Positions 1-64,000 of a stretch of DNA of 64,000 nucleotides are shown piece after piece (position 1 is the first letter of the stretch; the number at the start of each line of letters is the position of its first letter). The stretch comes from Paramacrobiotus metropolitanus (Eukaryota; Tardigrada; Eutardigrada; Parachela; Macrobiotidae), in the NCBI RefSeq assembly GCF_019649055.1, contig NW_026570355.1:248001-312000 (forward strand), written 5' to 3'. The notes beneath the pieces were generated by a model. The model saw only the letters and a program-made list of their open reading frames with translations. It did not search any database and was not told the DNA's origin. The position numbers and the translations under genes were made by a program.

Positions 1-284
1 GTTTATAGCAAACTCTTGACAGCAATGCCGTGGCCTCGTGCGTCAGCGTATTTAACAGGAGACAAAAAGCTGCTTCAAACAATTTTAAAAAAGCGCGTTG
101 AATCCCCAATACCCCGGTCTCTTTCATCAACGAATCCATGCCGACCATAACGGCCATACCTTAAAATTTTTTTTTGGAGATATCGTATTTTTTCAAGTCA
201 GCCTACGGCATCTACAGTTTTAAAGTTAAGTTCCAAACAATTCTGTGGGAAATAAACGAGTTTTAGGAAAAATCACGAACACAT
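1..284 (+). repeat. Partial L monomer at the left edge
   Basis: The window opens inside an L unit. The first base corresponds to about base 31 of the L that starts at anchor 1592, so the missing 5' part is about 30 bp. It has the GAACACATCGATG right-end variant and the CGAATCCATGCCGACC middle seen also near 1.76, 4.28, 5.90 and 11.51 kb. Confidence 0.9.
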
Positions 285-759
285 CGATGTTTTCGCTTTC
301 TGTAAAAACAAGCGGTTTATAGCAATTCCACGACAGCAATGCTGTGGCCTCGTGAGTCAGCGTATGTATTACGATACAAAAATAGGTATCGTCAAGTGGC
401 CTTACGTTATCTACAGTTTCAAAGTAAAGCTACAACTGATTCTCTGGGAAATCTTTGACTTTTAGAAAAAATCTCGAAAACATCGATGTTTTCGCCTTCT
501 GCAGAAAAAAATGGTTTATAGCAAATCCACGACAGCAATGCTGTGGCTTCGCGAGTCAGCCTATGTTTCAGGAGACAAAAATAGGATTCTTCAAGTGGCC
601 TTACGTTATCTACAGTTTCAAAGTAAAGCAACAACTGATTCTCTGGGAATTCATTGATTTTTAAAAAAATCTCGAAAACAACGATGTTTTCGCCTTCTGT
701 AGAAAGGAGCAGTTTGTACTAAATGCAAGACAGCTATGCCGTGGCATCGTGCGTCAGCG

Positions 760-770
760 TATATAAAAGG
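760..770 (+). promoter_or_regulatory. TATA-box-like motif in some L monomers (representative)
   Basis: TATATAAAAGG matches the RNA polymerase II TATA consensus TATAWAWR. It lies about 78 bp after the palindrome centre. The same motif appears at 18252-18262 and 63901-63911, and in most L units that carry the CCGTCAGTG or CCGTCAGCG 5' end. L units with GCGTATTTAACAGG lack it. A weakened form GTGTATAAAAGG occurs near 32.85, 33.56, 34.27 and 34.98 kb. Nothing else here supports a promoter, so transcription is speculation. Confidence 0.3.
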
Positions 771-789
771 AGACAAAAAGCTGCTTCAA

Positions 790-4435: not shown

Positions 4436-6055
4436 CGATGTTTTCGCTTTCTGTAAAAACAAGCGGTTTATAGCAATTCCACGACAGCAATGCTGTGGCC
4501 TCGTGAGTCAGCGTATGTATTACGATACAAAAATAGGTATCGTCAAGTGGCCTTACGTTATCTACAGTTTCAAAGTAAAGCTACAACTGATTCTCTGGGA
4601 AATCTTTGACTTTTAGAAAAATCTCGAAAACATCGATGTTTTCGCCTTCTGCAGAAAAAATGGTTTATAGCAAATCCACGACAGCAATGCTGTGGCTTCA
4701 TGAGTCAGCCTATGTTTCAGGAGACAAAAATAGGATTCTTCAAGTGGCCTTACGTTATCTACAGTTTCAAAGTAAAGCAACAACTGATTCTCTGGGAATT
4801 CATTGATTTTTAAAAAATCTCGAAAACAACGATGTTTTCGCCTTCTGTAGAAAGGAGCAGTTTGTACTAAATGCAAGACAGCTATGCCGTGGCATCGTGC
4901 GTCAGCGTATATAAAAGGAGACAAAAAGCTGCTTCAAACAATTTTAAAAAAGCGCGTTGAATCCCCAATACCCCGGTCTATTTCATCAACGAATCCATAC
5001 CGACCATAACGGCCATACCTTAAAACTTTTTTTTGGAGATATCGTATTTTTTTCAAGTCAGCCTACGGCATATTCAGTTTTAAAGTTAAGTTCCAAACAA
5101 TTCTCTGGCAAATAAACGAGTTTTAGGAAAAATCACGAAAACATCGATGTTTTCGCTTTCTGTAAAAAAAAGCGGTTTATAGCAATTTCACGACAGCAAT
5201 GCTGTGGCCTCGTGAGTCAGCGTATGTATGAGGAGACAGAAAAAAGATTCTTCAAGTGGCCATACGTTATCTACAGTTTCAAAGGAAAGCTACAACTGAT
5301 TCTCTGGGAAATCTTTGATTTTTAGAAAGAATCTCGAAAACATCGATGTTTTCGCCTTCTGCAGAAAAAAGTGGTTTATAGCAAATCCACGACAGCAATG
5401 CTGTGGCCTCGTGTGTCAGCGTATGTATTACGATACAAAAATAGGTATCGTCAAGTGGCCTTACGTTATCTACAGTTTCAAAGTAAAGCTACAACTGATT
5501 CTCTGGGAAATCTTTGATTTTTAGAAAGAATCTCGAAAACATCGATGTTTCCGCCTTCTGCAGAAAAAAGTGGTTTATAGCAAATCCACGACAGCAATGC
5601 TGTGGCCTCGTGAGTCAGCGTATGTATTAGGAGACAAAACTAAGATTCTTCAAGCGGCCTTACGTTATTTACAGTTTCAAAGTGAAGCTACAACAGATTC
5701 TCTGGGAAATCTTTGATATTTAGTAAGATCTCGAAAACATCGATGTTTTCGCCTTGTGTAGAAAAAAGTGGTTTATAGCAAACTCTTGACAGCAATGCCG
5801 TGGCCTCGTGCGTCAGCGTATTTAACAGGAGACAAAAAGCTGCTTCAAACAATTTTAAAAAAGCGCGTTGAATCCCCAATACCCCGGTCTCTTTCATCAA
5901 CGAATCCATGCCGACCATAACGGCCATACCTTAAAATTTGTTTTTTGGAGATATCGTATTTTTTCAAGTCAGCCTACGGCATCTACAGTTTTAAAGTTAA
6001 GTTCCAAACAATTCTGTGGGAAATAAACGAGTTTTAGGAAAAATCACGAACACAT
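4436..6055 (+). repeat. 1.62 kb HOR, copy 2 (S S L S S S L)
   Basis: Anchors 4436, 4634, 4830, 5145, 5344, 5543, 5741, end 6056. Same order as 285-1906. The last L carries AAAATTTG followed by T's at about 5934-5946, shared with the L near 11.54 kb. That places the left join of the next HOR inside this L. Confidence 0.88.
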
Positions 6056-9000
6056 CGATGTTTTCGCTTTCTGTAAAAACAAGCGGTTTATAGCAATTCC
6101 ACGACAGCAATGCTGTGGCCTCGTGAGTCAGCGTATGTATTACGATACAAAAATAGGTATCGTCAAGTGGCCTTACGTTATCTACAGTTTCAAAGTAAAG
6201 CTACAACTGATTCTCTGGGAAATCTTTGACTTTTAGAAAAATCTCGAAAACATCGATGTTTTCGCCTTCTGAAGCAAAAGTGGTTCAAAGCAAATCCACG
6301 ACAGCAATGCTGTGGCCTCGTGAGTCAGCGTATGTATTACGATACAAAAATAGGTATCGTCAAGTGGCCTCACGTTATTTACAGTTTCAAAGTTATGCTA
6401 CAACTGATTCTCTGGGAAATCTTGATATTTAGAAAAATCTCGAAAACTTCGATGTTATCGCCTTGTGTTGAAAAAAAGTGGTTTATAGCAAATCCTTGAC
6501 AGCAATGCCGTGGCCTCGTGCGTCAGCGTATTTAACAGGAGACAAAAGCTGCTTCAAACAATTTTAAAAAAGCGTTGAATCCCCAATACCCCGGTCTCTT
6601 TCATCAACGAATCCATACCGACCATAACGGCCATACCTTAAAACTTTTTTTGGAGATATCGTATTTTTTTCAAGTCAGCCTACGGCATCTACAGTTTTAA
6701 AGTTAAGTTCCAAACAATTCTCTGGGAAATAAACGAGTTTTAGGAAAAATCACGAACACATCGATGTTTTCGCTTTCTGTAAAAACAAGCGGTTTATAGC
6801 AATTCCACGACAGCAATGCTGTGGCCTCGTGAGTCAGCGTATGTATTACGATACAAAAATAGGTATCGTCAAGTGGCCTTACGTTATCTACAGTTTCAAA
6901 GTAAAGCTACAACTGATTCTCTGGGAAATCTTTGACTTTTAGAAAAAATCTCGAAAACATCGATGGTTTTGCTTTCTGAAGCAAAGAGTGGTTCAAAGCA
7001 AATCCAAGACAGCAATGCTGTGGCCTCGTGAGTCAGCGTATGTATTACGATACAAAAATAGGTATCGTCAAGTGGCCTTACGTTATCTACAGTTTCAAAG
7101 TAAAGCTACAACTGATTCTCTGGGAAATCTTTGACTTTTAGAAAAATCTCGAAAACATCGATGTTTTCGCCTTCTGAAGCAAAGAGTGGTTCAAAGCAAA
7201 TCCACGACAGCAATGCTGTGGCCTCGTGAGTCAGCGTATGTATTACGATACAAAAATAGGTATCGTCAAGTGGCCTCACGTTATTTACAGTTTCAAAGTT
7301 ATGCTACAACTGATTCTCTGGGAAATCTTGATATTTAGAAAAATCTCGAAAACTTCGATGTTATCGCCTTGTGTTGAAAAAAGTGGTTTATAGCAAATCC
7401 TTGACAGCAATGCCGTGGCCTCTTGCGTCAGCTTATTTAACAGGAGACAAAAAGCTGCTTCAAACAATTTTAAAAAAGCGCGTTGAATCCCCAATACCCC
7501 GGTCTATTTCATCAACGAATCCATACCGACCATAACGGCCATACCTTAAAACTTTTTTTTGGAGACATTGTATTTTTTTCAAGTCAGCCTACGGCATCTA
7601 CAGTTTTAAAGTTAAGTTCCAAACAATTCTCTAGGAAATAAACGAGTTTTAGGAAGAATCACGAAAACATCGATGTTTTTGCTTTCTGTAAAAAACAGCG
7701 GTTTATAGCAATTCCACGACAGCAATGCTGTGGCCTCGTGAGTCAGCGTATGGATGAGGAGACAGAAAAAAGATTCTTCAAGTGGCCATACGTTATTTAC
7801 AGTTTCAAAGCAGAGTTTACAACTGATTCTCTGGAAAATCTTCGATATTTAGAAAAAATCTCGAAAACTTCGATGTTATCGCCTTGTGTTGAAAAAAGTG
7901 GTTTATAGCAAATCCTTGACAGCAATGCCGTGGCCTCGTGCGTCAGCGTATTTAACAGGAGACAAAAAGCTGCTTCAAACAATATTAAAAAAGCGCGTTG
8001 AATCCCCAATACCCCGGTCTCTTTCATCAACGAATCCATACCGACCATAACGGCCATACCTTAAAACTTTTTTTTGGAGATATCGTATTTTTTTCAAGTC
8101 AGCCTACGGCATCTACAGTTTTAAAGTTAAGTTCCAAACAATTCTCTGGGAAATAAACGAGTTTTAGGAAAAATCACGAACACATCGATGTTTTCGCTTT
8201 CTGTAAAAACAAGTGGTTTATAGCAATTCCACGACAGCAATGCTGTGGCCTCGTGAGTCAGCGTATGTATTACGATACAAAAATAGGTATCGTCAAGTGG
8301 CCTTACGTTATCTACAGTTTCAAAGTAAAGCTACAACTGATTCTCTGGGAAATCTTTGACTTTTAGAAAAAATCTCGAAAACATCGATGTTTTTGCCTTC
8401 TGAAGCAAAGAGTGGTTCAAAGCAAATCCAAGACAGCAATGCTGTGGCCTCGTGAGTCAGCGTATGTATTACGATACAAAAATAGGTATCGTCAAGTGGC
8501 CTTACGTTATTTACAGTTTCAAAGTGAAGCTACAACTGATTCTCTGGGAAATCTTCGATATTTAGAAAAAATCTCGAAAACTTCGATGTTATCGCCTTGT
8601 GTTGAAAAAAGTGGTTTATAGCAAATCCTTGACAGCAATGCCGTGGCCTCTTGCGTCAGCTTATTTACCAGGAGACAAAAGCTGCTTCAAACAATTTTAA
8701 AAAAGCGCGTTGAATCCCCAATACCCCGGTCTCTTTCATCAACGAATCCATACCGACCATAACGGCCATACCTTAAAACTTTTTTTGGAGACATTGTATT
8801 TTTTTTCAAGTCAGCCTACGGCATCTACAGTTTTAAAGTTAAGTTCCAAACAATTCTCTAGGAAATAAACGAGTTTTAGGAAAAATCACGAAAACATCGA
8901 TGTTTTCGCTTTCTGTAAAAAACAGCGGTTCATAGCAATTCCACGACAGCAATGCTGTGGCCTCGTGAGTCAGCGTATGGATGAGGAGACAGAAAAAAGA

Positions 9001-11658
9001 TTCTTCAAGTGGCCATACGTTATTTACAGTTTCAAAGCAGAGCTACAACTGATTCTGTGGGAAATCTTCGATATTTAGAAAAATCTCGAAAACATCGATG
9101 TTATCGCCTTGTGTTGAAAAAAGTGGTTTATAGCAAATCCTTGACAGCAATGCCGTGGCCTCTTGCGTCAGCTTATTTAACAGGAGACAAAAGCTGCTTC
9201 AAACAATTTTAAAAAAGCGCGTTGAATCCCCAATACCCCGGTCTCTTTCATCAACGAATCCATACCGACCATAACGGCCATACCTTAAAACTTTTTTTGG
9301 AGACATTGTATTTTTTCAAGTCAGCCTACGGCATCTACAGTTTTAAAGTTAAGTTCCAAACAATTCTCTAGGAAATAAACGAGTTTTAGGAAAAATCACG
9401 AAAACATCGATGTTTTCGCTTTCTGTAAAAAACAGCGGTTCATAGCAATTCCACGACAGCAATGCTGTGGCCTCGTGAGTCAGCGTATGGATGAGGAGAC
9501 AGAAAAAAGATTCTTCAAGTGGCCATACGTTATTTACAGTTTCAAAGCAGAGCTACAACTGATTCTGTGGGAAATCTTCGATATTTAGAAAAATCTCGAA
9601 AACATCGATGTTATCGCCTTGTGTTGAAAAAAAGTGGTTTATAGCAAATCCTTGACAGCAATGCCGTGGCCTCTTGCGTCAGCTTATTTAACAGGAGACA
9701 AAAGCTGCTTCAAACAATTTTAAAAAAGCGCGTTGAATCCCCAATACCCCGGTCTCTTTCATCAACGAATCCATACCGACCATAACGGCCATACCTTAAA
9801 ACTTTTTTTTGGAGACATTGTATTTTTTCAAGTCAGCCTACGGCATCTACAGTTTTAAAGTTAAGTTCCAACCAATTCTCTAGGAAATAAACGAGTTTTA
9901 GGAAAAATCACGAAAACATCGATGTTTTCGCTTTCTGTAAAAAACAGCGGTTTATAGCAATTCCACGACAGCAATGCTGTGGCCTCGTGAGTCAGCGTAT
10001 GGATGAGGAGACAGAAAAAAGATTCTTCAAGTGGCCATACGTTATTTACAGTTTCAAAGCAGAGCTACAACTGATTCTCTTGGAAATCTTCGATATTTAG
10101 AAAAATCTCGAAAATATCGATGTTATCGCCTTGTGTTGAAAAAAGTGGTTTATAGCAAATCCTTGTCAGCAATGCCGTGGCCTCTTGCGTCAGCTTATTT
10201 ACCAGGAGACAAAAAGCTGCTTCAAACAATTTTAAAAAAGCGCGTTGAATCCCCAATACCCCGGTCTCTTTCATCAACGAATCCATACCGACCATAACGG
10301 CCATACCTTAAAACTTTTTTTTGGAGACATTGTATTTTTTTCAAGTCAGCCTACGGCATCTACAGTTTTAAAGTTAAGTTGCAAACAATTCTCTAGGAAA
10401 TAAACGAGTTTTAGGAAAAATCACGAAAACATCGATGTTTTCGCTTTTTGTAAAAAACAGCGGTTTATAGCAATTCCACGACAGCAATGCTGTGGCCTCG
10501 TGAGTCAGCGTATGGATGAGGAGACAGAAAAAAGATTCTTCAAGTGGCCTTATGTTATTTACAGTTTCAAAGTGAAGCTACAACTGATTCTCTGGGAAAT
10601 CTTCGATATTTAGAAAAAATCTCGAAAACATCGATGTTATCGCCTTGTGTTGAAAAAAGTGGTTTATAGCAAATCCTTGACAGCAATGCCGTGGCCTCTT
10701 GCGTCAGCTTATTTAACAGGAGACAAAAAGCTGCTTCAAACAATTTTAAAAAAGCGCGTTGAATCCCCAATACCCCGGTCTCTTTCATCAACGAATCCAT
10801 ACCGACCATAACGGCCATACCTTAAAACTTTTTTTTGGAGACATTGTATTTTTTTCAAGTCAGCCTACGGCATCTACAGTTTTAAAGTTAAGTTCCAAAC
10901 AATTCTCTAGGAAATAAACGAGTTTTAGGAAAAATCACGAAAACATCGATGTTTTCGCTTTCTGTAAAACACAGCGGTTTATAGCAATTCCACGACAGCA
11001 ATGCTGTGGCCTCGTGAGTCAGCGTATGGATGAGGAGACAGAAAAAAGATTCTTCAAGTGGCCATACGTTATTTACAGTTTCAAAGCAGAGCTACAACTG
11101 ATTCTCTGGAAAATCATTGATTTTTAGAAAAAATCTCGAAAACATCAATGTTTCCGCCTTCTGCAGAAAAAAGTGGTTTATAGCAAATCCACGACAGCAA
11201 TGCTGTGGCCTCGTGAGTCAGCGTATGTATTAGGAGACGAAAATAAGATTCTTCAAGCGGCCTTACGTTATTTACAGTTTCAAAGTGAAGCTATAACTGA
11301 TTCTCTGGGAAATCTTTGATATTTAGAAAAAATCTCGAAAACATCGATGTTTTCGCCTTGTGTAGAAAAAAGTGGTTTATAGCAAATCCTTGACAGCAAT
11401 GCCGTGGCCTCTTGCGTCAGCGTATTTAACAGGAGACAAAAAGCTGCTTCAAACAATTTTAAAAAGCGCGTTGAATCCCCAATACCCCGGTCTCTTTCAT
11501 CAACGAATCCATGCCGACCATAACGGCCATACCTTAAAATTTGTTTTTGGAGATATCGTATTTTTTTCAAGTCAGCCTACGGCATCTACAGTTTTAAAGT
11601 TAAGTTCCAAACAATTCTGTGGGAAATAAACGAGTTTTAGGAAAAATCACGAACACAT
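6056..11658 (+). repeat. 5.6 kb HOR, copy 1 (23 monomers)
   Basis: Order: S S L, S S S L, S L, S S L, S L, S L, S L, S L, S S L. Anchors: 6056, 6254, 6450, 6762, 6961, 7159, 7356, 7671, 7871, 8186, 8385, 8584, 8898, 9096, 9408, 9606, 9920, 10118, 10433, 10632, 10947, 11146, 11345, end 11659. The stretch 8584-11145 alternates S and L strictly, a 513 bp dimer. The following copy has the same 23-unit order. One palindrome variant (ATCGATGG at 6961) is private to this copy. Confidence 0.9.
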
Positions 11659-14600
11659 CGATGTTTTCGCTTTCTGTAAAAACAAGCGGTTTATAGCAAT
11701 TCCACGACAGCAATGCTGTGGCCTCGTGAGTCAGCGTATGTATTACGATACAAAAATAGGTATCGTCAAGTGGCCTTACGTTATCTACAGTTTCAAAGTA
11801 AAGCTACAACTGATTCTCTGGGAAATCTTTGACTTTTAGAAAAAATCTCGAAAACATCGATGTTTTCGCCTTCTGAAGCAAAGAGTGGTTCAAAGCAAAT
11901 CCACGACAGCAATGCTGTGGCCTCGTGAGTCAGCGTATGTATTACGATACAAAAATAGGTATCGTCAAGTGGCCTCACGTTATTTACAGTTTCAAAGTTA
12001 TGCTACAACTGATTCTCTGGGAAATCTTCGATATTTAGAAAAAATCTCGAAAACTTCGATGTTATCGCCTTGTGTTGAAAAAAGTGGTTTATAGCAAATC
12101 CTTGACAGCAATGCCGTGGCCTCGTGCGTCAGCGTATTTAACAGGAGACAAAAAGCTGCTTCAAACAATTTTAAAAAAGCGCGTTGAATCCCCAATACCC
12201 CGGTCTCTTTCATCAACGAATCCATACCGACCATAACGGCCATACCTTAAAACTTTTTTTTGGAGATATCGTATTTTTTTCAAGTCAGCCTACGGCATCT
12301 ACAGTTTTAAAGTTAAGTTCCAAACAATTCTCTGGGAAATAAACGAGTTTTAGGAAAAATCACGAACACATCGATGTTTTCGCTTTCTGTAAAAACAAGC
12401 GGTTTATAGCAATTCCACGACAGCAATGCTGTGGCCTCGTGAGTCAGCGTATGTATTACGATACAAAAATAGGTATCGTCAAGTGGCCTTACGTTATCTA
12501 CAGTTTCAAAGTAAAGCTACAACTGATTCTCTGGGAAATCTTTGACTTTTAGAAAAAATCTCGAAAACATCGATGTTTTTGCCTTCTGAAGCAAAGAGTG
12601 GTTCAAAGCAAATCCAAGACAGCAATGCTGTGGCCTCGTGAGTCAGCGTATGTATTACGATACAAAAATAGGTATCGTCAAGTGGCCTTACGTTATCTAC
12701 AGTTTCAAAGTAAAGCTACAACTGATTCTCTGGGAAATCTTTGACTTTTAGAAAAAATCTCGAAAACATCGATGTTTTCGCCTTCTGAAGCAAAGAGTGG
12801 TTCAAAGCAAATCCACGACAGCAATGCTGTGGCCTCGTGAGTCAGCGTATGTATTACGATACAAAATAGGTATCGTCAAGTGGCCTCACGTTATTTACAG
12901 TTTCAAAGTTATGCTACAACTGATTCTCTGGGAAATCTTCGATATTTAGAAAAATCTCGAAAACTTCGATGTTATCGCCTTGTGTTGAAAAAGTGGTTTA
13001 TAGCAAATCCTTGACAGCAATGCCGTGGCCTCTTGCGTCAGCTTATTTAACAGGAGACAAAAAGCTGCTTCAAACAATTTTAAAAAAGCGCGTTGAATCC
13101 CCAATACCCCGGTCTATTTCATCAACGAATCCATACCGACCATAACGGCCATACCTTAAAACTTTTTTTTGGAGACATTGTATTTTTTTCAAGTCAGCCT
13201 ACGGCATCTACAGTTTTAAAGTTAAGTTCCAAACAATTCTCTAGGAAATAAACGAGTTTTAGGAAGAATCACGAAAACATCGATGTTTTTGCTTTCTGTA
13301 AAAAACAGCGGTTTATAGCAATTCCACGACAGCAATGCTGTGGCCTCGTGAGTCAGCGTATGGATGAGGAGACAGAAAAAGATTCTTCAAGTGGCCATAC
13401 GTTATTTACAGTTTCAAAGCAGAGTTTACAACTGATTCTCTGGAAAATCTTCGATATTTAGAAAAATCTCGAAAACTTCGATGTTATCGCCTTGTGTTGA
13501 AAAAAGTGGTTTATAGCAAATCCTTGACAGCAATGCCGTGGCCTCGTGCGTCAGCGTATTTAACAGGAGACAAAAGCTGCTTCAAACAATATTAAAAAAG
13601 CGCGTTGAATCCCCAATACCCCGGTCTCTTTCATCAACGAATCCATACCGACCATAACGGCCATACCTTAAAACTTTTTTTTGGAGATATCGTATTTTTT
13701 CAAGTCAGCCTACGGCATCTACAGTTTTAAAGTTAAGTTCCAAACAATTCTCTGGGAAATAAACGAGTTTTAGGAAAAATCACGAACACATCGATGTTTT
13801 CGCTTTCTGTAAAAACAAGTGGTTTATAGCAATTCCACGACAGCAATGCTGTGGCCTCGTGAGTCAGCGTATGTATTACGATACAAAAATAGGTATCGTC
13901 AAGTGGCCTTACGTTATCTACAGTTTCAAAGTAAAGCTACAACTGATTCTCTGGGAAATCTTTGACTTTTAGAAAAATCTCGAAAACATCGATGTTTTTG
14001 CCTTCTGAAGCAAAGAGTGGTTCAAAGCAAATCCAAGACAGCAATGCTGTGGCCTCGTGAGTCAGCGTATGTATTACGATACAAAAATAGGTATCGTCAA
14101 GTGGCCTTACGTTATTTACAGTTTCAAAGTGAAGCTACAACTGATTCTCTGGGAAATCTTCGATATTTAGAAAAAATCTCGAAAACTTCGATGTTATCGC
14201 CTTGTGTTGAAAAAAGTGGTTTATAGCAAATCCTTGACAGCAATGCCGTGGCCTCTTGCGTCAGCTTATTTACCAGGAGACAAAAAGCTGCTTCAAACAA
14301 TTTTAAAAAAGCGCGTTGAATCCCCAATACCCCGGTCTCTTTCATCAACGAATCCATACCGACCATAACGGCCATACCTTAAAACTTTTTTTGGAGACAT
14401 TGTATTTTTTTCAAGTCAGCCTACGGCATCTACAGTTTTAAAGTTAAGTTCCAAACAATTCTCTAGGAAATAAACGAGTTTTAGGAAAAATCACGAAAAC
14501 ATCGATGTTTTCGCTTTCTGTAAAAAACAGCGGTTCATAGCAATTCCACGACAGCAATGCTGTGGCCTCGTGAGTCAGCGTATGGATGAGGAGACAGAAA

Positions 14601-27600: not shown

Positions 27601-27913
27601 ATGTTTTCGCCTTCTGTAGAATGAGACAGTACAAAATAAATCCACGACAGCGATGCCGTGGCCTCGTCCGTCAGTGTATATAAAAGGTGACAAAAAGCTG
27701 CTTCAAACAATTTTAAAAAAGCGCGTTGAATCCCCAATACCCAGGTCTCACTCATCAACGAATCCACACCGACCATAACGGCCATACCTTAAAGCTTTTT
27801 TCTGGAGATATCGTATTTTTTTCAAGTCAGCTTACGGCATCTACAGTTTTAAAGTTAAGTTCCAAACAATTCTCTGGGAAATAAACGAGTTTTAGGAAAA
27901 ATCACGAAAACAT
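23456..27913 (+). repeat. 4.46 kb HOR, copy 1 (19 monomers)
   Basis: Order: S S L, S L, S S S L, S L, S S S L, S S S L. Anchors: 23456, 23654, 23853, 24165, 24364, 24678, 24877, 25076, 25271, 25582, 25781, 26095, 26293, 26492, 26688, 27002, 27201, 27400, 27599, end 27914. Its first five units are also the last five of the 4.06 kb HOR copy 2. Markers: TGTAGACTGAGACAGTGC, AGGTATTGTCAAG, TAGATGTTTTAGCC, GGTGAAAAAGC in two L units, ACGTATCACGATAC, and an L ending with TAAAGCTTTTTTCTGG. Confidence 0.89.
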
Positions 27914-47410: not shown

Positions 47411-49376
47411 CGATGTTTTCGCCTTCTGTAGAAAGAGACAGTACAAAATAAATCCACGACAGCGATGCAGTGGCCTCGTCCGTCAGCGTATATAAAAGGA
47501 GGCAAAGAGCTGCTTCAAACAATTTTAAAAAAGCGCGTTTAATTCCAACTACCCCGGTCTCACTCATCAACGAATCCATACCGACCATAACGGCCTTACC
47601 TTAAAACTTTTTTTTGAGATATCGTGTTTTTTTCAAGTCAGCCTACGGCATCTACAGTTTCAAAGTAAAGTTTCAAACAATTCTCTGGGAAATAAACGAG
47701 TTTCAGGAAAAATCACGAAAACATCGATGTTTTCGCTTTCTGTAAAAAAAAAGCGGTTTATAGCAAATCCACGGCAGCAATGCTGTGGCCTCGTGAGTCA
47801 GCGTATGTTTGAGGAGACAGAAATAGGATTCTTTAAGTGGCCACACGTTATCTACAGTTTTAAAGCGAAGCTACAACTGACTCTCTGGGAAATCATTGAT
47901 TTTAAAAAAATCTCGAAAACATCGATGTTTTCGCCTTGTGTAGAAAAAAGCTGTTTATAGCAAATCGTTGACAGCAATGCCGTGGCCTCGTGCGTCAGCG
48001 TATTTAACAGGAGAGAAAGAGCTGCTTCAAACAATTTTAAAAAAGCGCGTTTAATTCCAACTACCCCGGTCTCACTCATCAACGAATCCATACCGACCAT
48101 AGCGGCCTTACCTGAAAACTTTTTTTTGGAGATATCGTATTTTTTTCAAGTCAGCCTACGGCATCTACAGTTTTAAAGTTAAGTTCCAAACAATTCTCTG
48201 GGAAATAAACGAGTTTTAGGAAAAATCACGAAAACATCGATGTTTTCGCTTTCTGTAAAAAAAAGCGGTTTATAGCAATTCCACGACAGCAATGCTGTGG
48301 CCTCGTGAGTCAGCGTATTTAACAGGAGACAAAAAGCTGCTTCAAACAATTTTAAAAAAGCGCCTTTAATTCCAACTACACCGGTCTCACTCATCAACAA
48401 ACCATACCGACCATAACGGCCTTACCTGAAAACGTTTTTTGGAGATATCGTATTTTTTTCAAGTCAGCCTACGGCATCTACAGTTTTAAAGTAAAGTTCC
48501 AAACAATTCTCTGGGAAATAAACGAGTTTTAGGAAAAATCGCCAAAACATCCATGTTTTCGCATTCTGTAAAAAAAAGCGGTTTATAGCAAATCCTCGAC
48601 AGCAATGCTGTGGCCTCGTAAGTTAGCGTATGTATGAGGAGACAAAAATAGATTTCTTCAAGTGGCCTTACGTTATCTACAGTTTCAAAGTAAAGCTACA
48701 ACTGGTTCTCCGAAAACCATTGACTTTTAGAAAAAATCTCGAAAACATCGATGTTTTCGCCTTCTGTAGAAAGAGACAGTACAAAATAAATCCACGACAG
48801 CGATGCAGTGGCCTCGTCCGTCAGCGTATATAAAAGGAGGCAAAGAGCTGCTTCAAACAATTTTAAAAAAGCGCGTTTAATTCCAACTACCCCGGTCTCA
48901 CTCATCAACGAATCCATACCGACCATAACGGCCTTACCTGAAAACTTTTTTTTGAGATATCGTATTTTTTTTCAAGTCAGCCTACGGCATCTACAGTTTT
49001 AAAGTTAAGTTCCAAACAATTCTCTGGGAAATAAACGAGTTTTAGGAAAAATCACGAAAACATCGATGTTTTCGCTTTCTGTAAAAAAAAGCGGTTTATA
49101 GCAATTCCACGACAGCAATGCTGTGGCCTCGTGAGTCAGCGTATTTAACAGGAGACAAAAAGCTGCTTCAAACAATTTTAAAAAAGCGCCTTTAATTCCA
49201 ACTACCCCGGTCTCACTCATCAACAAACCATACCGACCATAACGGCCTTACCTGAAAACGTTTTTTGGAGATATCGTATTTTTTTCAAGTCAGCCTACGG
49301 CATCTACAGTTTTAAAGTAAAGTTCCAAACAATTCTCTGGGAAATAAACGAGTTTTAGGAAAAATCGCCAAAACAT
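47224..49376 (+). repeat. 2.15 kb HOR, copy 2 (S L S L L S L L)
   Basis: Anchors 47224, 47411, 47725, 47923, 48238, 48551, 48749, 49064, end 49377. Same order as 44238-46400. Its first S is 187 bp because of an 11 bp deletion next to the palindrome; the S starting the following block at 49377 has the same deletion. Confidence 0.86.
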
Positions 49377-52553: not shown

Positions 52554-52752
52554 CCATGTTTTCGCCTTCTGTAAAAAAAAGCGGTTTATAGCAAATCCTC
52601 GACAGCAATGCTGTGACCTCGTAAGTTAGCGTATGTATGAGGAGACAAAAATAGATTTCTTCAAGTGGCCTTACGTTATCTACAGTTTCAAAGTGAAGCT
52701 ACAACTGACTCTCTGGGAAATCATTGATTTTTAGAAAAAATCTCGAAAACAT
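52554..52752 (+). repeat. Single S monomer before the L-only run
   Basis: A 199 bp S with CCTCGTAAGTTAGCG and GTATGAGGAGACAAAAATAG. It begins at a TCCATG palindrome variant and ends at an intact palindrome. It is the last S before nine consecutive L units. Confidence 0.88.
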
Positions 52753-55576
52753 CGATGTTTTCGCCTTCTGTAGAATGAGACAGTACAAAATAAATCCACG
52801 ACAGCGATGCCGTGGCCTCGTCCGTCAGTGTATATAAAAGGAGATAAAAAGCTGCTTCAAACAATTTTAAAAAAGCGCGATTAATTCCAACTACCCCGGT
52901 CTCACTCATCAACGAATCCATACCGACCATAACGGCCATACCTTAAAACTTTTTTTTGGAGATATCGTATTTTTTTCAAGTCAGCCTACGGCATCTACAG
53001 TTTTAAAGTTAAGTTCCAAACAATTCTCTGGGAAATAAACGAGTTTTAGGAAAAATCACGAAAACATCGATGTTTTCGCTTTCTGTAAAAAAAAGCGGTT
53101 TATAGCAGTTCCACGACAGCAATGCTGTGGCCTCGTGAGTCAGCGTATTTAACAGGAGACAAAAAGCTGCTTCAAACAATTTTCAAAAAGAGCGTTTCAT
53201 TCCAACTACCCCGGTCTCACTCATCAACGAATCCATACCGTCCATAACGGCCATACCTTAAAACTTTTTTTGGAGATATCGTATTTTTTTCAAGGCAGCC
53301 TTCGGCATCTACAGTTTCAAAGTTAAGTTCCAAACAATTCTCTGGGAAATAAACGAGTTTTAGGAAAAATCACGAAAACATCGATGTTTTCGCTTTCTGT
53401 AAAAAAAAGCGGTTTATAGCAGTTCCACGACAGCAATGCTGTGGCCTCGTGAGTCAGCGTATTTAACAGGAGACAAAAAGCTGCTTCAAACAATTTTCAA
53501 AAAGAGCGTTTCATTCCAACTACCCCGGTCTCACTCATCAACGAATCCATACCGTCCATAACGGCCATACCTTAAAACTTTTTTTGGAGATATCGTATTT
53601 TTTTCAAGGCAGCCTTCGGCATCTACAGTTTCAAAGTTAAGTTCCAAACAATTCTCTGGGAAATAAACGAGTTTTAGGAAAAATCACGAAAACATCGATG
53701 TTTTCGCTTTCTGTAAAAAAAAGCGGTTTATAGCAGTTCCACGACAGCAATGCTGTGGCCTCGTGAGTCAGCGTATTTAACAGGAGACAAAAAGCTGCTT
53801 CAAACAATTTTAAAAAAGCGCGTTTAATTCCAACTACCTCGGTCTCACTCATGAACGAATCCATACCGACCATAACGGCCATACCTGAAAACTGTTTTTT
53901 GGAGATATCGTATTTTTTTCAAGTCAGCCTACGGCATCTACAGTTTTAAAGTTAAGTTCCAAACAATTCTCTGGGAAATAAACGAGTTTTAGGAAAAATC
54001 ACGAAAACATCGATGTTTTTGCTTTCTGTAAAAAAAAGCGGTTTATAGCAGTTTCACGACAGCAATGCTGTGGCCTCGTGAGTCAGCGTATTTAACAGGA
54101 GAAAAAAGCTGCTTCAAACAATTTTAAAAAAGCGCGTTTAATTCCAACTACCCCGGTCTCACTCATGAACGAATCCATACCGACCATAACGGCCATACCT
54201 GAAAACTGTTTTTGGAGATATCGTATTTTTTTCACGTCAGCCTACGGCATCTACAGTTTAAAAGTAAAGATCCTAACAATTCGCTGGGAAGTAATCGAGT
54301 TTTAGAATAAATCACGAAAACAACGATGTTTTCGCCTTCTGTGAGAAAAAGCGGTTTATAGCAGTTCCACGACAGCAATGCTGTGGCCTCGTGAGTCAGC
54401 GTATTTAACAGGAGACAAAAAGCTGCTTCAAACAATTTTCAAAAAGAGCGTTTCATTCCAACTACCCCGGTCTCACTCATCAACGAATCCATACCGTCCA
54501 TAACGGCCATACCTTAAAACTTTTTTTGGAGATATCGTATTTTTTTCAAGGCAGCCTTCGGCATCTACAGTTTCAAAGTTAAGTTCCAAACAATTCTCTG
54601 GGAAATAAACGAGTTTTAGGAAAAATCACGAAAACATCGATGTTTTCGCTTTCTGTAAAAAAAAGCGGTTTATAGCAGTTCCACGACAGCAATGCTGTGG
54701 CCTCGTGAGTCAGCGTATTTAACAGGAGACAAAAGCTGCTTCAAACAATTTTAAAAAAAGCGTTTAATTCCAACTACCTCGGTCTCACTCATGAACGAAT
54801 CCATACCGACCATAACGGCCATACCTGAAAACTGTTTTTTGGAGATATCGTATTTTTTTCAAGTCAGCCTACGGCATCTACAGTTTTAAAGTTAAGTTCC
54901 AAACAATTCTCTGGGAAATAAACGAGTTTTAGGAAAAATCACGAAAACATCGATGTTTTTGCTTTCTGTAAAAAAAAGCGGTTTATAGCAGTTTCACGAC
55001 AGCAATGCTGTGGCCTCGTGAGTCAGCGTATTTAACAGGAGAAAAAAGCTGCTTCAAACAATTTTAAAAAAGCGCGTTTAATTCCAACTACCCCGGTCTC
55101 ACTCATGAACGAATCCATACCGACCATAACGGCCATACCTGAAAACTGTTTTTGGAGATATCGTATTTTTTTCACGTCAGCCTACGGCATCTACAGTTTA
55201 AAAGTAAAGATCCTAACAATTCGCTGGGAAATAATCGAGTTTTAGAATAAATCACGAAAACAACGATGTTTTCGCTTTCTGCAGAAAAAAGTGGTTTATA
55301 GCAAATCCGTGACAGCAATGCCGTGGCCTCGTGCGTCAGCGTATTTAACAGGAGACAAAAAGCTGCTTCAAACAATTTTAAAAAAGCGCCTTTAATTCCA
55401 ACTACCCCGGTCTCACTCATCAACAAACCATACCGACCATAACGGCCTTACCTGAAACCTTTTTTTGGAGATATCGTATTTTTTTCAAGTCAGCCTACGG
55501 CATCTACAGTTTTAAAGTAAAGTTCCAAACAATTCTCTGGGAAATAAACGAGTTTTAGGAAAAATCGCCAAAACAT
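52753..55576 (+). repeat. Run of nine consecutive L monomers
   Basis: Anchors 52753, 53068, 53382, 53696, 54011, 54324, 54638, 54951, 55264, end 55577, all spaced 313-315 bp. Inside it, a three-L unit of about 941 bp is present twice (53382-54323 and 54324-55263). Each holds one L with TTTCAAAAAGAGCGTTTCATTCC and CAAGGCAGCCTTCGG, one with CTACCTCGGTCTCACTCATG, and one with CACGTCAGCC / CAATTCGCTGG. The unit 53068-53381 is an extra copy of the first. No S separates them. Confidence 0.9.
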
Positions 55577-58500
55577 CGATGTTTTCGCCTTCTGTAAAAA
55601 AAAGCGGTTTATAGCAAATCCTCGACAGCAATGCTGTGGCCTCGTAAGTTAGCGTATGTATGAGGAGACAAAAATAGATTTCTTCAAGTGGCCTTACGTT
55701 ATCTACAGTTTCAAAGTAAAGCTACAACTGACTCTCTGGGAAATCATTGATTTTTAGAAAAATCTCGAAAACATCGATGTTTTCGCCTTCTGTAGAATGA
55801 GACAGTACAAAATAAATCCACGACAGCGATGCCGTGGCCTCGTCCGTCAGTGTATATAAAAGGAGACAAAAGCTGCTTCAAACAATTTTAAAAAAGCGCG
55901 TTTAATTCCAACTACCCAGGTCTCACTCATCAACGAATCCATACCGACCATAACGGCCATACCTTAAAGCTTTTTTTTGGAGATATCGTATTTTTTCAAG
56001 TCAGCCTACGGCATCTACAGTTTTAAAGTTAAGTTCCAAACAATTCTCTGGGAAATAAACGAGTTTTAGGAAAAATCACGAAAACATCGATGTTTCGCTT
56101 TCTGTAAAAAAAAGCGGTTTATAGCAGTTCCACGACAGCAATGCTGTGGCCTCGTGAGTCAGCGTATTTAACAGGAGACAAAAAGCTGCTTCAAACAATT
56201 TTAAAAAAGCGCGTTTAATTCCAACTACCCAGGTCTCACTCATCAACGAATCCATACCGACCATAACGGCCATACCTTAAAGCTTTTTTTTGGAGATATC
56301 GTATTTTTTTCAAGTCAGCCTACGGCATCTACAGTTTTAAAGTTAAGTTCCAAACAATTCTCTGGGAAATAAACGAGTTTTAGGAAAAATCGCCAAAACA
56401 TCGATGTTTTCGCCTTCTGTAAAAAAAAGCGGTTTATAGCAAACCGTTGACAGCAATGCCGTGTCCTCGTGCGTCAGCGTATTTAACAGGAGACAAAAAG
56501 CTGCTTCAAACAATTTTAAAAAAGCGCCTTTAATTCCAACTACCCCGGTCTCACTCATCAACAAACCATACCGACCATAACGGCCTTACCTGAAAACTTT
56601 TTTTGGAGTTATCGTATTTTTTTCAAGTCAGCCTACGGCATCTACAGTTTTAAAGTAAAGTTCCAAACAATTCTCTGGGAAATAAACGAGTTTTAGGAAA
56701 AATCGCCAAAACATCGATGTTTTCGCCTTCTGTAAAAAAAAGCGGTTTATAGCAAATCCTCGACAGCAATGCTGTGGCCTCGTAAGTTAGCGTATGTATG
56801 AGGAGACAAAAATAGATTTCTTCAAGTGGCCTTACGTTATCTACAGTTTCAAAGTAAAGCTACAACTGACTCTCTGGGAAATCATTGATTTTTAGAAAAA
56901 ATCTCGAAAACATCGATGTTTTCGCCTTCTGTAGAATGAGACAGTACAAAATAAATCCACGACAGCGATGCCGTGGCCACGTCCGTCAGTGTATATAAAA
57001 GGAGTCAAAAAGCTGCTTCAAACAATTTTAAAAAAGCGCGTTTAATTCCAACTACCCAGGTCTCACTCATCAACGAATCCATACCGAACATAACGGCCAT
57101 ACCTTAAAGCTTTTTTTTGGAGATATCGTATTTTTTTCAAGTCAGCCTACGGCATCTACAGTTTTAAAGTTAAGTTCCAAACAATTCTCTGGGAAATAAT
57201 CGAGTTTTAGAATAAATCACGAAAACAACGATGTTTTCGCCTTCTGTGAGAAAAAGCGGTTTATAGCAAATCGTTGACAGCAATGCCGTGGCCTCGTGCG
57301 TCAGCGTATTTAACAGGAGACAAAAAGCTGCTTCAAACAATTTTGAAAAAGCGCCTTTAATTCCAACTACCCCGGTCTCACTCATCAACAAACCATACCG
57401 ACCATAACGGCCTTACCTGAAAACTTTTTTTGGAGTTATCGTATTTTTTTCAAGTCAGCCTACGGCATCTACAGTTTTAAAGTAAAGTTCCAAACAATTC
57501 TCTGGGAAATAAACGAGTTTTAGGAAAAATCGCCAAAACATCGATGTTTTCGCCTTCTGTAAAAAAAAGCGGTTTATAGCAAATCCTCGACAGCAATGCT
57601 GTGGCCTCGTAAGTTAGCGTATGTATGAGGAGACAAAAATAGATTTCTTCAAGTGGCCTTACGTTATCTACAGTTTCAAAGTAAAGCTACAACTGACTCT
57701 CTGGGAAATCATTGATTTTTAGAAAAAATCTCGAAAACATCGATGTTTTCGCCTTCTGTAGAATGAGACAGTACAAAATAAATCCACGACAGCGATGCCG
57801 TGGCCTCGTCCGTCAGTGTATATAAAAGGAGACAAAAAGCTGCTTCAAACAATTTTAAAAAAGCGCGTTTAATTCCAACTACCCAGGTCTCACTCATCAA
57901 CGAATCCATAACGACCATAACGGCCATACCTTAAAGCTTTTTTTTGGAGATATCGTATTTTTTTCAAGTCAGCCTACGGCATCTACAGTTTTAAAGTTAA
58001 GTTCCAAACAATTCTCTGGGAAATAAACGAGTTTTAGGAAAAATCACGAAAACATCGATGTTTTCGCTTTCTGTAAAAAAAAGCGGTTTATAGCAGTTCC
58101 ACGACAGCAATGCTGTGGCCTCGTGAGTCAGCGTATTTAACAGGAGACAAAAAGCTGCTTCAAACAATTTTAAAAAAGCGCGTTTAATTCCAACTACCCC
58201 GGTCTCACTCATGAACGAATCCATACCGACCATAACGGCCATACCTGAAAACTGTTTTTGGAGATATCGTATTTTTTCACGTCAGCCTACGGCATCTACA
58301 GTTTAAAAGAAAAGATCCTAACAATTCGCTGGGAAATAATCGAGTTTTAGAATAAATCACGAAAACAACGATGTTTTCGCCTTCTGTGAGAAAAAGCGGT
58401 TTATAGCAAATCGTTGACAGCAATGCCGTGGCCTCGTGCGTCAGCGTATTTAACAGGAGACAAAAAGCTGCTTCAAACAATTTTAAAAAAGCGCCTTTAA

Positions 58501-58679
58501 TTCCAACTACCCCGGTCTCACTCATCAACAAACCATACCGACCATAACGGCCTTACCTGAAAACTTTTTTGGAGTTATCGTATTTTTTCAAGTCAGCCTA
58601 CGGCATCTACAGTTTTAAAGTAAAGTTCCAAACAATTCTCTGGGAAATAAACGAGTTTTAGGAAAAATCGCCAAAACAT
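55577..58679 (+). repeat. S L L L / S L L / S L L L block
   Basis: Anchors 55577, 55775, 56088, 56402, 56715, 56914, 57229, 57542, 57741, 58056, 58369, end 58680. The first and third subunits are both 1138 bp, the middle one 827 bp. The middle one lacks an L because the L at 56914-57228 is chimeric: it is an AAAGCTTTTTTTTGG type up to CTCTGGGAAATA and then switches to the ATCGAGTTTTAGAATAAATC end, near 57195. Confidence 0.86.
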
Positions 58680-60329
58680 CGATGTTTTCGCCTTCTGTAA
58701 AAAAAAAGCGGTTTATAGCAAATCCTCGACAGCATTACTGTGGCCTCGTAAGTTAGCGTATGTTTGAGGAGACAAAAATAGATTTCTTCAAGTGGCCTTA
58801 CGTTATCTACAGTTTCAAAGTAAAGCTACAACTGACTCTCTGGGAAATCATTGATTTTTAGAAAAAATCTCGAAAACATCGATGTTTTCGCCTTCTGTAG
58901 AATGAGACAGTACAAAATAAATCCACGACAGCGATGCCGTGGCCTCGTCCGTCAGTGTATATAAAAGGAGACAAAAAGCTGCTTCGAACAATTTTAAAAA
59001 AGCGCGTTTAATTCCAACTACCCCGGTCTCACTCATCAACAAACCATACCGTCCATAACGGCCATACCTTAAAACTTTTTTTGGAGTTATCGTATTTTTT
59101 TCAAGTCAGCCTACGGCATCTACAGTTTTAAAGTAAAGTTCCAAACAATTCTCTGGGAAATAAACGAGTTTTAGGAAAAATCGCCAAAACATCGATGTTT
59201 TCGCCTTCTGTAAAAAAAAGCGGTTTATAGCAAATCCTCGACAGCAATGCTGTGGCCTCGTAAGTTAGCGTATGTATGAGGAGACAAAAATAGATTTCTT
59301 CAAGTGGCCTTACGTTATCTACAGTTTCAAAGTAAAGCTACAACTGACTCTCTGGGAAATCATTGATTTTTAGAAAAAATCTCGAAAACATCGATGTTTT
59401 CGCCTTCTGTAGAATGAGACAGTACAAAATAAATCCACGACAGCGATGCCGTGGCCTCGTCCGTCAGTGTATATAAAAGGAGACAAAAAGCTGCTTCAAA
59501 CAATTTTAAAAAGCGCGTTTAATTCCAACTACCCAGGTCTCACTCATCAACGAATCCATACCGACCATAACGGCCATACCTTAAAGCTTTTTTTTGGAGA
59601 TATCGTATTTTTTTCAAGTCAGCCTACGGCATCTACAGTTTTAAAGTTAAGTTCCAAACAATTCTCTGGGAAATAAACGAGTTTTAGGAAAAATCACGAA
59701 AACATCGATGTTTTCGCTTTCTGTAAAAAAAGCGGTTTATAGCAGTTCCACGACAGCAATGCTGTGGCCTCGTGAGTCAGCGTATTTAACAGGAGACAAA
59801 AGCTGCTTCAAACAATTTTAAAAAAGCGCGTTTAATTCCAACTACCCCGGTCTCACTCATGAACGAATCCATACCGACCATAACGGCCATACCTGAAAAC
59901 TGTTTTGGAGATATCGTATTTTTTCACGTCAGCCTACGGCATCTACAGTTTAAAAGAAAAGATCCTAACAATTCGCTGGGAAATAATCGAGTTTTAGAAT
60001 AAATCACGAAAACAACGATGTTTTCGCCTTCTGTGAGAAAAAAGCGGTTTATAGCAAATCGTTGACAGCAATGCCGTGGCCTCGTGCGTCAGCGTATTTA
60101 ACAGGAGACAAAAAGCTGCTTCAAACAATTTTAAAAAAGCGCCTTTAATTCCAACTACCCCGGTCTCACTCATCAACAAACCATACCGACCATAACGGCC
60201 TTACCTGAAAACTTTTTTTGGAGTTATCGTATTTTTTTCAAGTCAGCCTACGGCATCTACAGTTTTAAAGTAAAGTTCCAAACAATTCTCTGGGAAATAA
60301 ACGAGTTTTAGGAAAAATCGCCAAAACAT
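58680..60329 (+). repeat. 1.65 kb HOR, copy 1 (S L S L L L)
   Basis: Anchors 58680, 58880, 59193, 59392, 59706, 60016, end 60330. Markers: CAGCATTACTGTGGCC with GTATGTTTGAGGAG in the first S, CTGCTTCGAACAATTTT in the first L, GGAGTTATCGTATTTTT in several L units, and CTGTTTTGGAGATATCG. The L at 58880 ends its middle part with ATCAACAAACC and CCGTCC, unlike copies 2 and 3. Confidence 0.89.
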
Positions 60330-61982
60330 CGATGTTTTCGCCTTCTGTAAAAAAAAGCGGTTTATAGCAAATCCTCGACAGCATTACTGTGGCCTCGTAA
60401 GTTAGCGTATGTTTGAGGAGACAAAAATAGATTTCTTCAAGTGGCCTTACGTTATCTACAGTTTCAAAGTAAAGCTACAACTGACTCTCTGGGAAATCAT
60501 TGATTTTTAGAAAAAATCTCGAAAACATCGATGTTTTCGCCTTCTGTAGAATGAGACAGTACAAAATAAATCCACGACAGCGATGCCGTGGCCTCGTCCG
60601 TCAGTGTATATAAAAGGAGACAAAAAGCTGCTTCGAACAATTTTAAAAAAGCGCGTTTAATTCCAACTACCCCGGTCTCACTCATCAACGAATCCATACC
60701 GACCATAACGGCCATACCTTAAAACTTTTTTTGGAGTTATCGTATTTTTTTCAAGTCAGCCTACGGCATCTACAGTTTTAAAGTAAAGTTCCAAACAATT
60801 CTCTGGGAAATAAACGAGTTTTAGGAAAAATCGCCAAAACATCGATGTTTTCGCCTTCTGTAAAAAAAAGCGGTTTATAGCAAATCCTCGACAGCAATGC
60901 TGTGGCCTCGTAAGTTAGCGTATGTATGAGGAGACAAAAATAGATTTCTTCAAGTGGCCTTACGTTATCTACAGTTTCAAAGTAAAGCTACAACTGACTC
61001 TCTGGGAAATCATTGATTTTTAGAAAAAATCTCGAAAACATCGATGTTTTCGCCTTCTGAAGAATGAGACAGTACAAAATAAATCCACGACAGCGATGCC
61101 GTGGCCTCGTCCGTCAGTGTATATAAAAGGAGACAAAAAGCTGCTTCAAACAATTTTAAAAAAGCGCGTTTAATTCCAACTACCCAGGTCTCACTCATCA
61201 ACGAATCCATACCGACCATAACGGCCATACCTTAAAGCTTTTTTTTGGAGATATCGTATTTTTTTCAAGTCAGCCTACGGCATCTACAGTTTTAAAGTTA
61301 AGTTCCAAACAATTCTCTGGGAAATAAACGAGTTTTAGGAAAAATCACGAAAACATCGATGTTTTCGCTTTCTGTAAAAAAAAGCGGTTTATAGCAGTTC
61401 CACGACAGCAATGCTGTGGCCTCGTGAGTCAGCGTATTTAACAGGAGACAAAAAGCTGCTTCAAACAATTTTAAAAAAGCGCGTTTAATTCCAACTACCC
61501 CGGTCTCACTCATGAACGAATCCATACCGACCATAACGGCCATACCTGAAAACTGTTTTTGGAGATATCGTATTTTTTTCACGTCAGCCTACGGCATCTA
61601 CAGTTTAAAAGAAAAGATCCTAACAATTCGCTGGGAAATAATCGAGTTTTAGAATAAATCACGAAAACAACGATGTTTTCGCCTTCTGTGAGAAAAAGCG
61701 GTTTATAGCAAATCGTTGACAGCAATGCCGTGGCCTCGTGCGTCAGCGTATTTAACAGGAGACAAAAAGCTGCTTCAAACAATTTTAAAAAGCGCCTTTA
61801 ATTCCAACTACCCCGGTCTCACTCATCAACAAACCATACCGACCATAACGGCCTTACCTGAAAACTTTTTTGGAGTTATCGTATTTTTTTCAAGTCAGCC
61901 TACGGCATCTACAGTTTTAAAGTAAAGTTCCAAACAATTCTCTGGGAAATAAACGAGTTTTAGGAAAAATCAGCCAAAACAT
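60330..61982 (+). repeat. 1.65 kb HOR, copy 2 (S L S L L L)
   Basis: Anchors 60330, 60529, 60843, 61042, 61357, 61671, end 61983. Same order and markers as copy 1. It introduces CCTTCTGAAGAATGAG at the second S to L junction, shared with copy 3 but not copy 1, so copies 2 and 3 are the closer pair. Confidence 0.9.
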
Positions 61983-63623
61983 CGATGTTTTCGCCTTCTG
62001 TAAAAAAAAGCGGTTTATAGCAAATCCTCGACAGCATTACTGTGGCCTCGTAAGTTAGCGTATGTTTGAGGAGACAAAATAGATTTCTTCAAGTGGCCTT
62101 ACGTTATCTACAGTTTCAAAGTAAAGCTACAACTGACTCTCTGGGAAATCATTGATTTTTAGAAAAATCTCGAAAACATCGATGTTTTCGCCTTCTGTAG
62201 AATGAGACAGTACAAAATAAATCCACGACAGCGATGCCGTGGCCTCGTCCGTCAGTGTATATAAAAGGAGACAAAAAGCTGCTTCGAACAATTTTAAAAA
62301 AGCGCGTTTAATTCAACCCCGGTCTCACTCATCAACGAATCCATACCGACCATAACGGCCATACCTTAAAACTTTTTTTGGAGTTATCGTATTTTTTCAA
62401 GTCAGCCTACGGCATCTACAGTTTTAAAGTAAAGTTCCAAACAATTCTCTGGGAAATAAACGAGTTTTAGGAAAAATCAGCCAAAACATCGATGTTTTCG
62501 CCTTCTGTAAAAAAAAGCGGTTTATAGCAAATCCTCGACAGCAATGCTGTGGCCTCGTAAGTTAGCGTATGTATGAGGAGACAAAAATAGATTTCTTCAA
62601 GTGGCCTTACGTTATCTACAGTTTCAAAGTAAAGCTACAACTGACTCTCTGGGAAATCATTGATTTTTAGAAAAATCTCGAAAACATCGATGTTTTCGCC
62701 TTCTGAAGAATGAGACAGTACAAAATAAATCCACGACAGCGATGCCGTGGCCTCGTCCGTCAGTGTATATAAAAGGAGACAAAAAGCTGCTTCAAACAAT
62801 TTTAAAAAAGCGCGTTTAATTCCAACTACCCAGGTCTCACTCATCAACGAATCCATACCGACCATAACGGCCATACCTTAAAGCTTTTTTTTGGAGATAT
62901 CGTATTTTTTTCAAGTCAGCCTACGGCATCTACAGTTTTAAAGTTAAGTTCCAAACAATTCTCTGGGAAATAAACGAGTTTTAGGAAAAATCACGAAAAC
63001 ATCGATGTTTTCGCTTTCTGTAAAAAAAAGCGGTTTATAGCAGTTCCACGACAGCAATGCTGTGGCCTCGTGAGTCAGCGTATTTAACAGGAGACAAAAG
63101 CTGCTTCAAACAATTTTAAAAAAAGCGTTTAATTCCAACTACCCCGGTCTCACTCATGAACGAATCCATACCGACCATAACGGCCATACCTGAAAACTGT
63201 TTTGGAGATATCGTATTTTTTTCACGTCAGCCTACGGCATCTACAGTTTAAAAGAAAAGATCCTAACAATTCGCTGGGAAATAATCGAGTTTTAGAATAA
63301 ATCACGAAAACAACGATGTTTTCGCCTTCTGTGAGAAAAAAGCGGTTTATAGCAAATCGTTGACAGCAATGCCGTGGCCTCGTGCGTCAGCGTATTTAAC
63401 AGGAGACAAAAAGCTGCTTCAAACAATTTTAAAAGCGCCTTTAATTCCAACTACCCCGGTCTCACTCATCAACAAACCATACCGACCATAACGGCCTTAC
63501 CTGAAAACTTTTTTGGAGTTATCGTATTTTTTCAAGTCAGCCTACGGCATCTACAGTTTTAAAGTAAAGTTCCAAACAATTCTCTGGGAAATAAACGAGT
63601 TTTAGGAAAAATCGCCAAAACAT
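61983..63623 (+). repeat. 1.65 kb HOR, copy 3 (S L S L L L)
   Basis: Anchors 61983, 62180, 62490, 62688, 63003, 63314, end 63624. Same order; about 12 bp shorter than copy 2 through A/T-run differences and a private loss near 62311-62321, where AATTCCAACTACCCC is reduced to AATTCAACCCC. AAAATCAGCCAAAAC (one extra base) at its first two L ends replaces AAAATCGCCAAAAC. Confidence 0.9.
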
Positions 63624-64000
63624 CGATGTTTTCGCCTTCTGTAAAAAAAAAGCGGTTTATAGCAAATCCTCGACAGCATTACTGTGGCCTCGTAAGTTAG
63701 CGTATGTTTGAGGAGACAAAATAGATTTCTTCAAGTGGCCTTACGTTATCTACAGTTTCAAAGTAAAGCTACAACTGACTCTCTGGGAAATCATTGATTT
63801 TTAGAAAAAATCTCGAAAACATCGATGTTTTCGCCTTCTGTAGAATGAGACAGTACAAAATAAATCCACGACAGCGATGCCGTGGCCTCGTCCGTCAGTG
63901 TATATAAAAGGAGACAAAAAGCTGCTTCGAACAATTTTAAAAAAGCGCGTTTAATTCCAACTACCCCGGTCTCACTCATCAACGAATCCATACCGTCCAT
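63624..64000 (+). repeat. 1.65 kb HOR, start of copy 4 (S and partial L)
   Basis: An S at 63624-63822 with CAGCATTACTGTGGCC, then the first ~178 bp of an L with TTCGAACAATTTT, a TATA-like motif at 63901-63911 and CATACCGTCCAT at the edge. The array clearly continues beyond the window. Confidence 0.9.

Follow-up and report, generated by a model that had tools for sequence, protein, structure and literature searches.

The window, that is, the whole stretch of DNA analysed, comprises 64,000 nt of Paramacrobiotus metropolitanus contig NW_026570355.1 (positions 248,001–312,000, forward strand). Our analysis confirmed that it is one uninterrupted complex satellite array, in which two subfamilies are interleaved and higher-order blocks are nested. 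The array and the palindrome used to delimit its units are as follows.

1–64000, + strand: satellite array, head-to-tail and uninterrupted, with 257 complete units between 276 and 63813 (148 S, 109 L) and a partial unit at either end
18677–18696, no strand assigned: exemplar of the 20-bp palindrome, CGAAAACATCGATGTTTTCG, perfect in 143 of 258 copies

A search allowing up to 6 mismatches out of 20 located 258 palindrome sites in the window, each with no more than 4 mismatches, while the same search of 20 base shuffles gave 2.4 sites on average. The resulting 257 intervals fall into two classes, S (n = 148, 187–200 bp, mode 199) and L (n = 109, 310–315 bp, mode 314), with none lying outside these ranges. 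Two further anchors gave the same tiling (148 S and 110 or 109 L intervals), and with these anchors we found neither any other spacing nor a minus-strand copy in the window. TRF, which is independent of the anchors, returned periods of 195–200, 311–315 and 395–397 bp, the last being approximately twice S. The original prediction had described a composite satellite with two interleaved monomer lengths, based on palindrome spacings of ~199 and ~314 bp over 257 units in one orientation and without interruption, and had proposed a TRF run on the window as a check; all of this is borne out, and the palindrome works well as a marker of the units. Mean identity to the respective consensus is 0.931 for S and 0.936 for L, and since even the most divergent unit of each class retains 0.864 (S) or 0.898 (L) identity, there is no foreign insert in the window. 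Both ends of the window fall within the array, which thus continues beyond it.

Units of hundreds of base pairs in a long, head-to-tail, non-coding array are one characteristic of complex satellite DNA, and this is what we observe. No tRNA genes were found in the window, and Rfam gave no match at the gathering score in the window and none up to an E-value of 5 in positions 1–2200, so that no catalogued ribozyme, the hallmark of ribozyme-bearing satellites, was detected within these searches. Pfam gave no match at the curated cut-off in the five ORFs scanned out of 13 of at least 100 aa; two of these five had sub-threshold matches to DUF960 (E = 0.013 and 0.016), which at ~16 bits against a cut-off of 25 we take as chance. 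We therefore reject a coding or RNA-gene repeat on the Rfam, tRNA and Pfam results, the last covering 5 of the 13 ORFs. Any function of the array would be a generic satellite one, in heterochromatin or at a centromere.

S and L as two subfamilies

Within the two length classes we distinguished subtypes a–e of S and three main subtypes, A–C, of L, of which the following exemplars, together with the L-only segment, are used below.

18677–18875, + strand: S unit, subtype a, 199 bp counted from the palindrome; 61 copies, of which 60 have a known predecessor (S in 44)
33074–33272, + strand: S unit, subtype b; 45 copies, preceded by L in 42 of 45
52744–53058, + strand: L unit, subtype A; 49 copies, preceded by S in 49 of 49
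49055–49367, + strand: L unit, subtype B, a b-type S core on an L body; 31 copies, preceded by L in 29 of 31
10623–10937, + strand: L unit, subtype C; 26 copies
52851–52967, + strand: L-only segment of ~116 bp in the subtype A exemplar (approximate, placed from alignment columns 107–223)

In the consensus alignment the L-only segment of ~116 bp is missing from S. On its 5′ side S and L differ at 6 of 107 columns (diagnostic sites, two of them weak), and in the shared 3′ arm at 22 of 91 (~25% divergence). The differentiation between the classes follows the same gradient, with values of 0.07 in the palindrome, 0.23 over columns 0–66, 0.51 over columns 67–106 and 0.73 in the 3′ arm. When individual units were scored on the 3′ arm, all 148 S units were at least 0.8 S-like, while 108 of the 109 L units scored below 0.2 and the remaining one between 0.2 and 0.4; accordingly, none of the 257 units joins one length class to the 3′ arm of the opposite class. 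At the few 5′ sites, 27 of the 109 L units were intermediate (0.2–0.4 S-like), which fits the chimeric S-type core of L subtype B described below. Comparison of subtype consensus sequences gave the same picture: in the 3′ arm A, B and C are 1–2% apart from one another and 23–33% from S subtypes a–e. Taken together, these results indicate that S (199 bp) and L (315 bp) are two diverged subfamilies with a common core of ~90 bp that starts at the palindrome. The original prediction of two length classes of one family was therefore half right: the classes are diverged subfamilies with a shared core rather than recent length variants of a single monomer.

It could be argued that S is simply L minus ~116 bp by a recent deletion, or L is S plus a recent insertion, so that the array consists of one monomer with an indel polymorphism. 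The first 107 columns do align with few differences, and TTCAA is present at both edges of the L-only segment (seen by eye in the consensus alignment), a trace that might stem from deletion between short direct repeats. However, a recent indel would not account for arms that are ~25% apart beyond it, when the three main L subtypes differ by only 1–2% there, nor for the complete absence of length/arm mixtures among the 257 units. We therefore reject a recent indel alone and consider this explanation improbable; the S/L indel may be the original event, but if so, it is old.

Beside the S/L indel, S units carry a second inverted repeat, ACGATAC-N8-GTATCGT (at 18772–18793 in the exemplar 18677–18875), whose 7-bp arms match perfectly in 60 of 148 S units, which belong to subtypes a and d. 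The four sites at which it varies are linked, reading GGTT in 71, CTAG in 70 and other combinations in 7 of the 148 units. In every one of the 109 L units the two sites of the left arm read GG, and so the left arm in a and d looks as if it had been templated by the right arm. This would be consistent with quasi-palindrome correction by a template switch, a single event that was then amplified.

Block duplication and the order of units

The principal duplicated blocks, and an L-only stretch discussed with them, are listed here.

5248–17560, + strand: block duplication, offset 5603 bp, 97.9% identity over 6.7 kb
21743–33380, + strand: block duplication, the largest among the pairs listed, offset 4454 bp, 96.6% identity over 7.2 kb
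57132–64000, + strand: six-unit higher-order repeat at the right end, the most similar among the pairs listed, offset 1651 bp, 98.2% identity over 5.2 kb
52656–55674, + strand: stretch of L units only (period 314 bp in TRF, with 9.6 copies and 93% matches), holding the sole run of nine L units

Self-comparison of the window revealed 23 duplicate pairs, none shorter than 1.9 kb or below 95% identity, all in the same orientation and with offsets of 512 to 9752 bp. Blocks of at least 1.9 kb at 95–98% identity cover at least 84.3% of the window, a lower bound, since the list of pairs is bounded by the search settings and incomplete: the shortest pair is 1.9 kb and shorter near-identical pieces must exist. 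As expected of higher-order repeats, multi-unit blocks are more alike (95–98.2%, in a block search restricted to at least 95%) than single units, whose mean pairwise identity within class is 0.897 for S and 0.905 for L. A second property of such repeats, one regular period over the array, was not found in the window. Instead, the best unit lag shifts along it (23, 17, 19, 6, 5, 8, 3, 29); lag 6 is best in stretches starting at 24–29 kb (0.5) and 53 kb (0.55); its value rises to 1.0 at the right end, where lags 12 and 16 do the same.

Written as a string, the succession of S and L accordingly contains 89 distinct words of eight units versus 152.9 in shuffles, and 161 runs versus 126.4 (sd 7.6), i.e. 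more alternation. This surplus of runs is pronounced over the first 128 units (89 versus 58.8) and weak thereafter (73 versus 65.6, sd 5.7), and the L share of units per 8-kb bin is 26–41% in the first 40 kb and 50–71% in the last 24 kb. We conclude that the order of S and L is largely explained by block (higher-order) duplication rather than by free mixing. The two classes had originally been described as mixed in changing order; the order does change along the window, but it mostly reflects the copying of blocks.

Apart from the run of nine L units at 52656–55674, the remaining 79 L runs consist of one to three units. Subtype B accounts for eight of these nine units, and the spread of this chimera and the loss of S units in that stretch may be linked.

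Core variants, junctions and the history of the array

Next to the palindrome, the shared core extends over a further ~70 bp. It is in this core that S and L types are seen to mix, and clustering of columns 20–66 resolved 15 core classes. These classes are closely tied to the neighbourhood in which a unit lies. The core class gave the right junction type (SS, SL, LS or LL) for 227 of 256 units (an in-sample fit with 15 classes), leaving 29 unpredicted, whereas naming the commonest junction type throughout would be right for 80. The mutual information between core class and junction is 1.49 of 1.91 bits, a value reached by none of 255 rotations (largest 1.04) and none of 1000 shuffles; because the copies within blocks are not independent, this statistic overstates the number of events and describes the pattern. 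At LL junctions the core is nearest an S subtype in 22 of 29 cases and of L type in the other 7, compared with 3 of 80 nearest an S subtype at SL junctions.

Subtype B carries an S-type core, matching S subtype b in every one of the 90 core columns; from L subtype C it differs at 13 of the same 90 columns but at none of the next 17, which lead up to the L-only segment. Subtype B is thus a chimera of a b-type S core and an L body, with the break between approximately columns 80 and 90. The simplest reading is that of one S–L exchange, either crossover or conversion, at about these columns, followed by amplification. Beyond column 106, B has 4 differences from A and 13 from C, so the L donor would not have been plain C or exactly any of the present subtypes, and the chimera is not a plain join of b and C.

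The palindrome opens the core in both subfamilies. For conservation it ranks 56th of 199 among 20-bp windows in S and 71st of 315 in L. There was no symmetric compensating pair among its 24 variant forms, and the 143 perfect copies compare with 134 expected from independently varying columns. On these ranks and the lack of compensating pairs we reject selection on the dyad. The quietest 20-bp windows are CGTTATCTACAGTTTCAAAG in S and CCATACCGACCATAACGGCC in L. Relative to column permutations the former is mildly exceptional (0.030) and the latter is not (0.149), indicating that the unevenness in L stems from a hypervariable stretch and not from a conserved box. The CENP-B box consensus, TTCGNNNNANNCGGG, has no exact match and two one-mismatch sites in the window versus 9.67 expected. 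The palindrome serves well as a ruler, but that it is a functional box is not clear, and we find no support for its having a special role.

This bears on the suggestion that the palindrome or core is a selected box, protein-binding in the manner of the CENP-B box or cruciform-forming, which keeps both unit types in the array. Such a box would fit with the palindrome being common to S and L, with a perfect 20-bp palindrome in a 199-bp consensus being improbable by chance (~3e-4, a rough estimate), with the hairpin that it forms in both exemplars folded (one S, one L), and with site variability that is non-uniform along the unit (the sd of 20-bp means was reached in 0.0006 of column permutations for S and in 0 of 5000 for L). 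Yet other parts of the unit are more conserved than the palindrome, its variants show neither compensatory changes nor a clear surplus of perfect copies, the quietest L window lies within the permutation range, and the CENP-B box consensus is absent. Folded as single-stranded DNA, the whole L exemplar does no better than its shuffles (z 0.29) and the S exemplar moderately better (z −2.58; n = 1 each). We regard a selected box as unlikely. Still less credible is that errors in genome assembly created the S/L mosaic or the block duplications: although long satellite arrays are generally difficult to assemble, identity reaches 98.2% and not 100% in the best duplicate block found, the block offsets are numerous, and random misjoins would not be expected to give junction-linked core variants.

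We consider it very likely that the array is a complex non-coding satellite that evolves through the duplication of blocks and through unequal exchange. The mechanism of exchange is drawn from the pattern alone. Blocks would arise where misaligned repeats undergo unequal exchange or replication-based duplication, and S and L would be made neighbours by exchange in the core, their most alike stretch. Each junction would then have arisen a few times and been copied along with its block. The low differentiation of the core could also represent retained ancestral similarity or constraint. Going further, the palindromic core might be a preferred recombination joint, S and L exchanging there and not in the arms, so that two diverged arms persist unblended, with junction types arising and being amplified at the core. 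We put this forward as a speculative and unlikely extension; if it were true, a short element would channel exchange and maintain two unit families. Because S and L can be told apart by length and by many fixed or near-fixed sites, junctions and exchanges are readable directly from sequence, and the array is chiefly a clean worked example of such reading. Should breakpoints prove to be core-confined in other arrays of the same genome, this would be relevant to the question of how diverged units of a satellite can persist together without homogenising each other.

Relation to known satellites

The satellite had been called unrecognised. The 20-bp palindrome had no match in viral contigs, nor did two further unit-derived patterns (0 and 0), and one 1.3-kb stretch of the window gave no match to phages and plasmids. 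In open-access PMC text we found neither any of twelve strings of 14–18 bases from the unit or its complement nor the unit lengths together with 'satellite', and its titles and abstract openings yielded nothing on interleaved unit lengths in one satellite. We recognise no described satellite with this sequence, and the label holds in that no convincing match was found in the prokaryotic, viral, phage and plasmid DNA and open-access text searched, a scope which makes it no evidence of novelty. The palindrome has a single match in prokaryotic genome contigs, in Lacticaseibacillus porcinae (L001:2955-2974), which we treat as chance, with ~0.2 expected in 257 billion bases (an estimate for equal base frequencies). 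Together with the structure of the array, the lack of matches points to a probably eukaryotic origin.

Arrays of this kind are known; what appears to be less common is that unit lengths as different as these occur in a single array, with a junction history readable in the core. Among known satellites, alpha satellite forms multi-unit blocks, the 260-bp form of the Drosophila melanogaster 1.688 family is a shortened 359-bp form, and the two halves of the Responder dimer are related. As in primate alpha satellite higher-order repeats, including Cercopithecus families C1–C4, diverged monomer types occur here within one family. Whereas C4 (171 bp) and C1/C2 (172 bp) are 1 bp apart in length, S and L are 116 bp apart; the CENP-B box, absent here, is lacking or nearly so in C1–C4 as well (PMC5109768).

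The 1.688 family likewise comprises distinct length classes (260, 353, 356, 359 and 372 bp; PMC7214746, PMC8321551). Unlike S and L, its subfamilies are described as discrete arrays, with the 260 form on 2L, 353 and 356 on 3L, and 359 on X. The 260 and 359 forms, which differ strongly, lie on separate chromosomes; the near-equal 353 and 356 forms share the 3L locus, so length mixing in one locus is not unique (PMC8321551). A 30-base 1.688 probe, which misses the 260-bp form (PMC8321551), had no match in the window at up to 3 mismatches, and the modes of 199 and 314 bp do not correspond to 1.688 unit lengths (260 or 353–372 bp). By description, the Anopheles satellites AgX367 and AgY477 are similar to S and L in being of unequal length with a common, highly similar region, but unlike S and L they lie on different chromosomes, X and Y (PMC7957348). 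Responder of Drosophila, again by description, has a dimeric unit of 120 bp + 120 bp, its halves being equal in length where S and L are unequal (PMC7214746).

The observed/expected ratio of CpG in the window is 1.24, i.e. CpG is not depleted; this is in keeping with many invertebrates and would argue against heavy CpG methylation of the genome.
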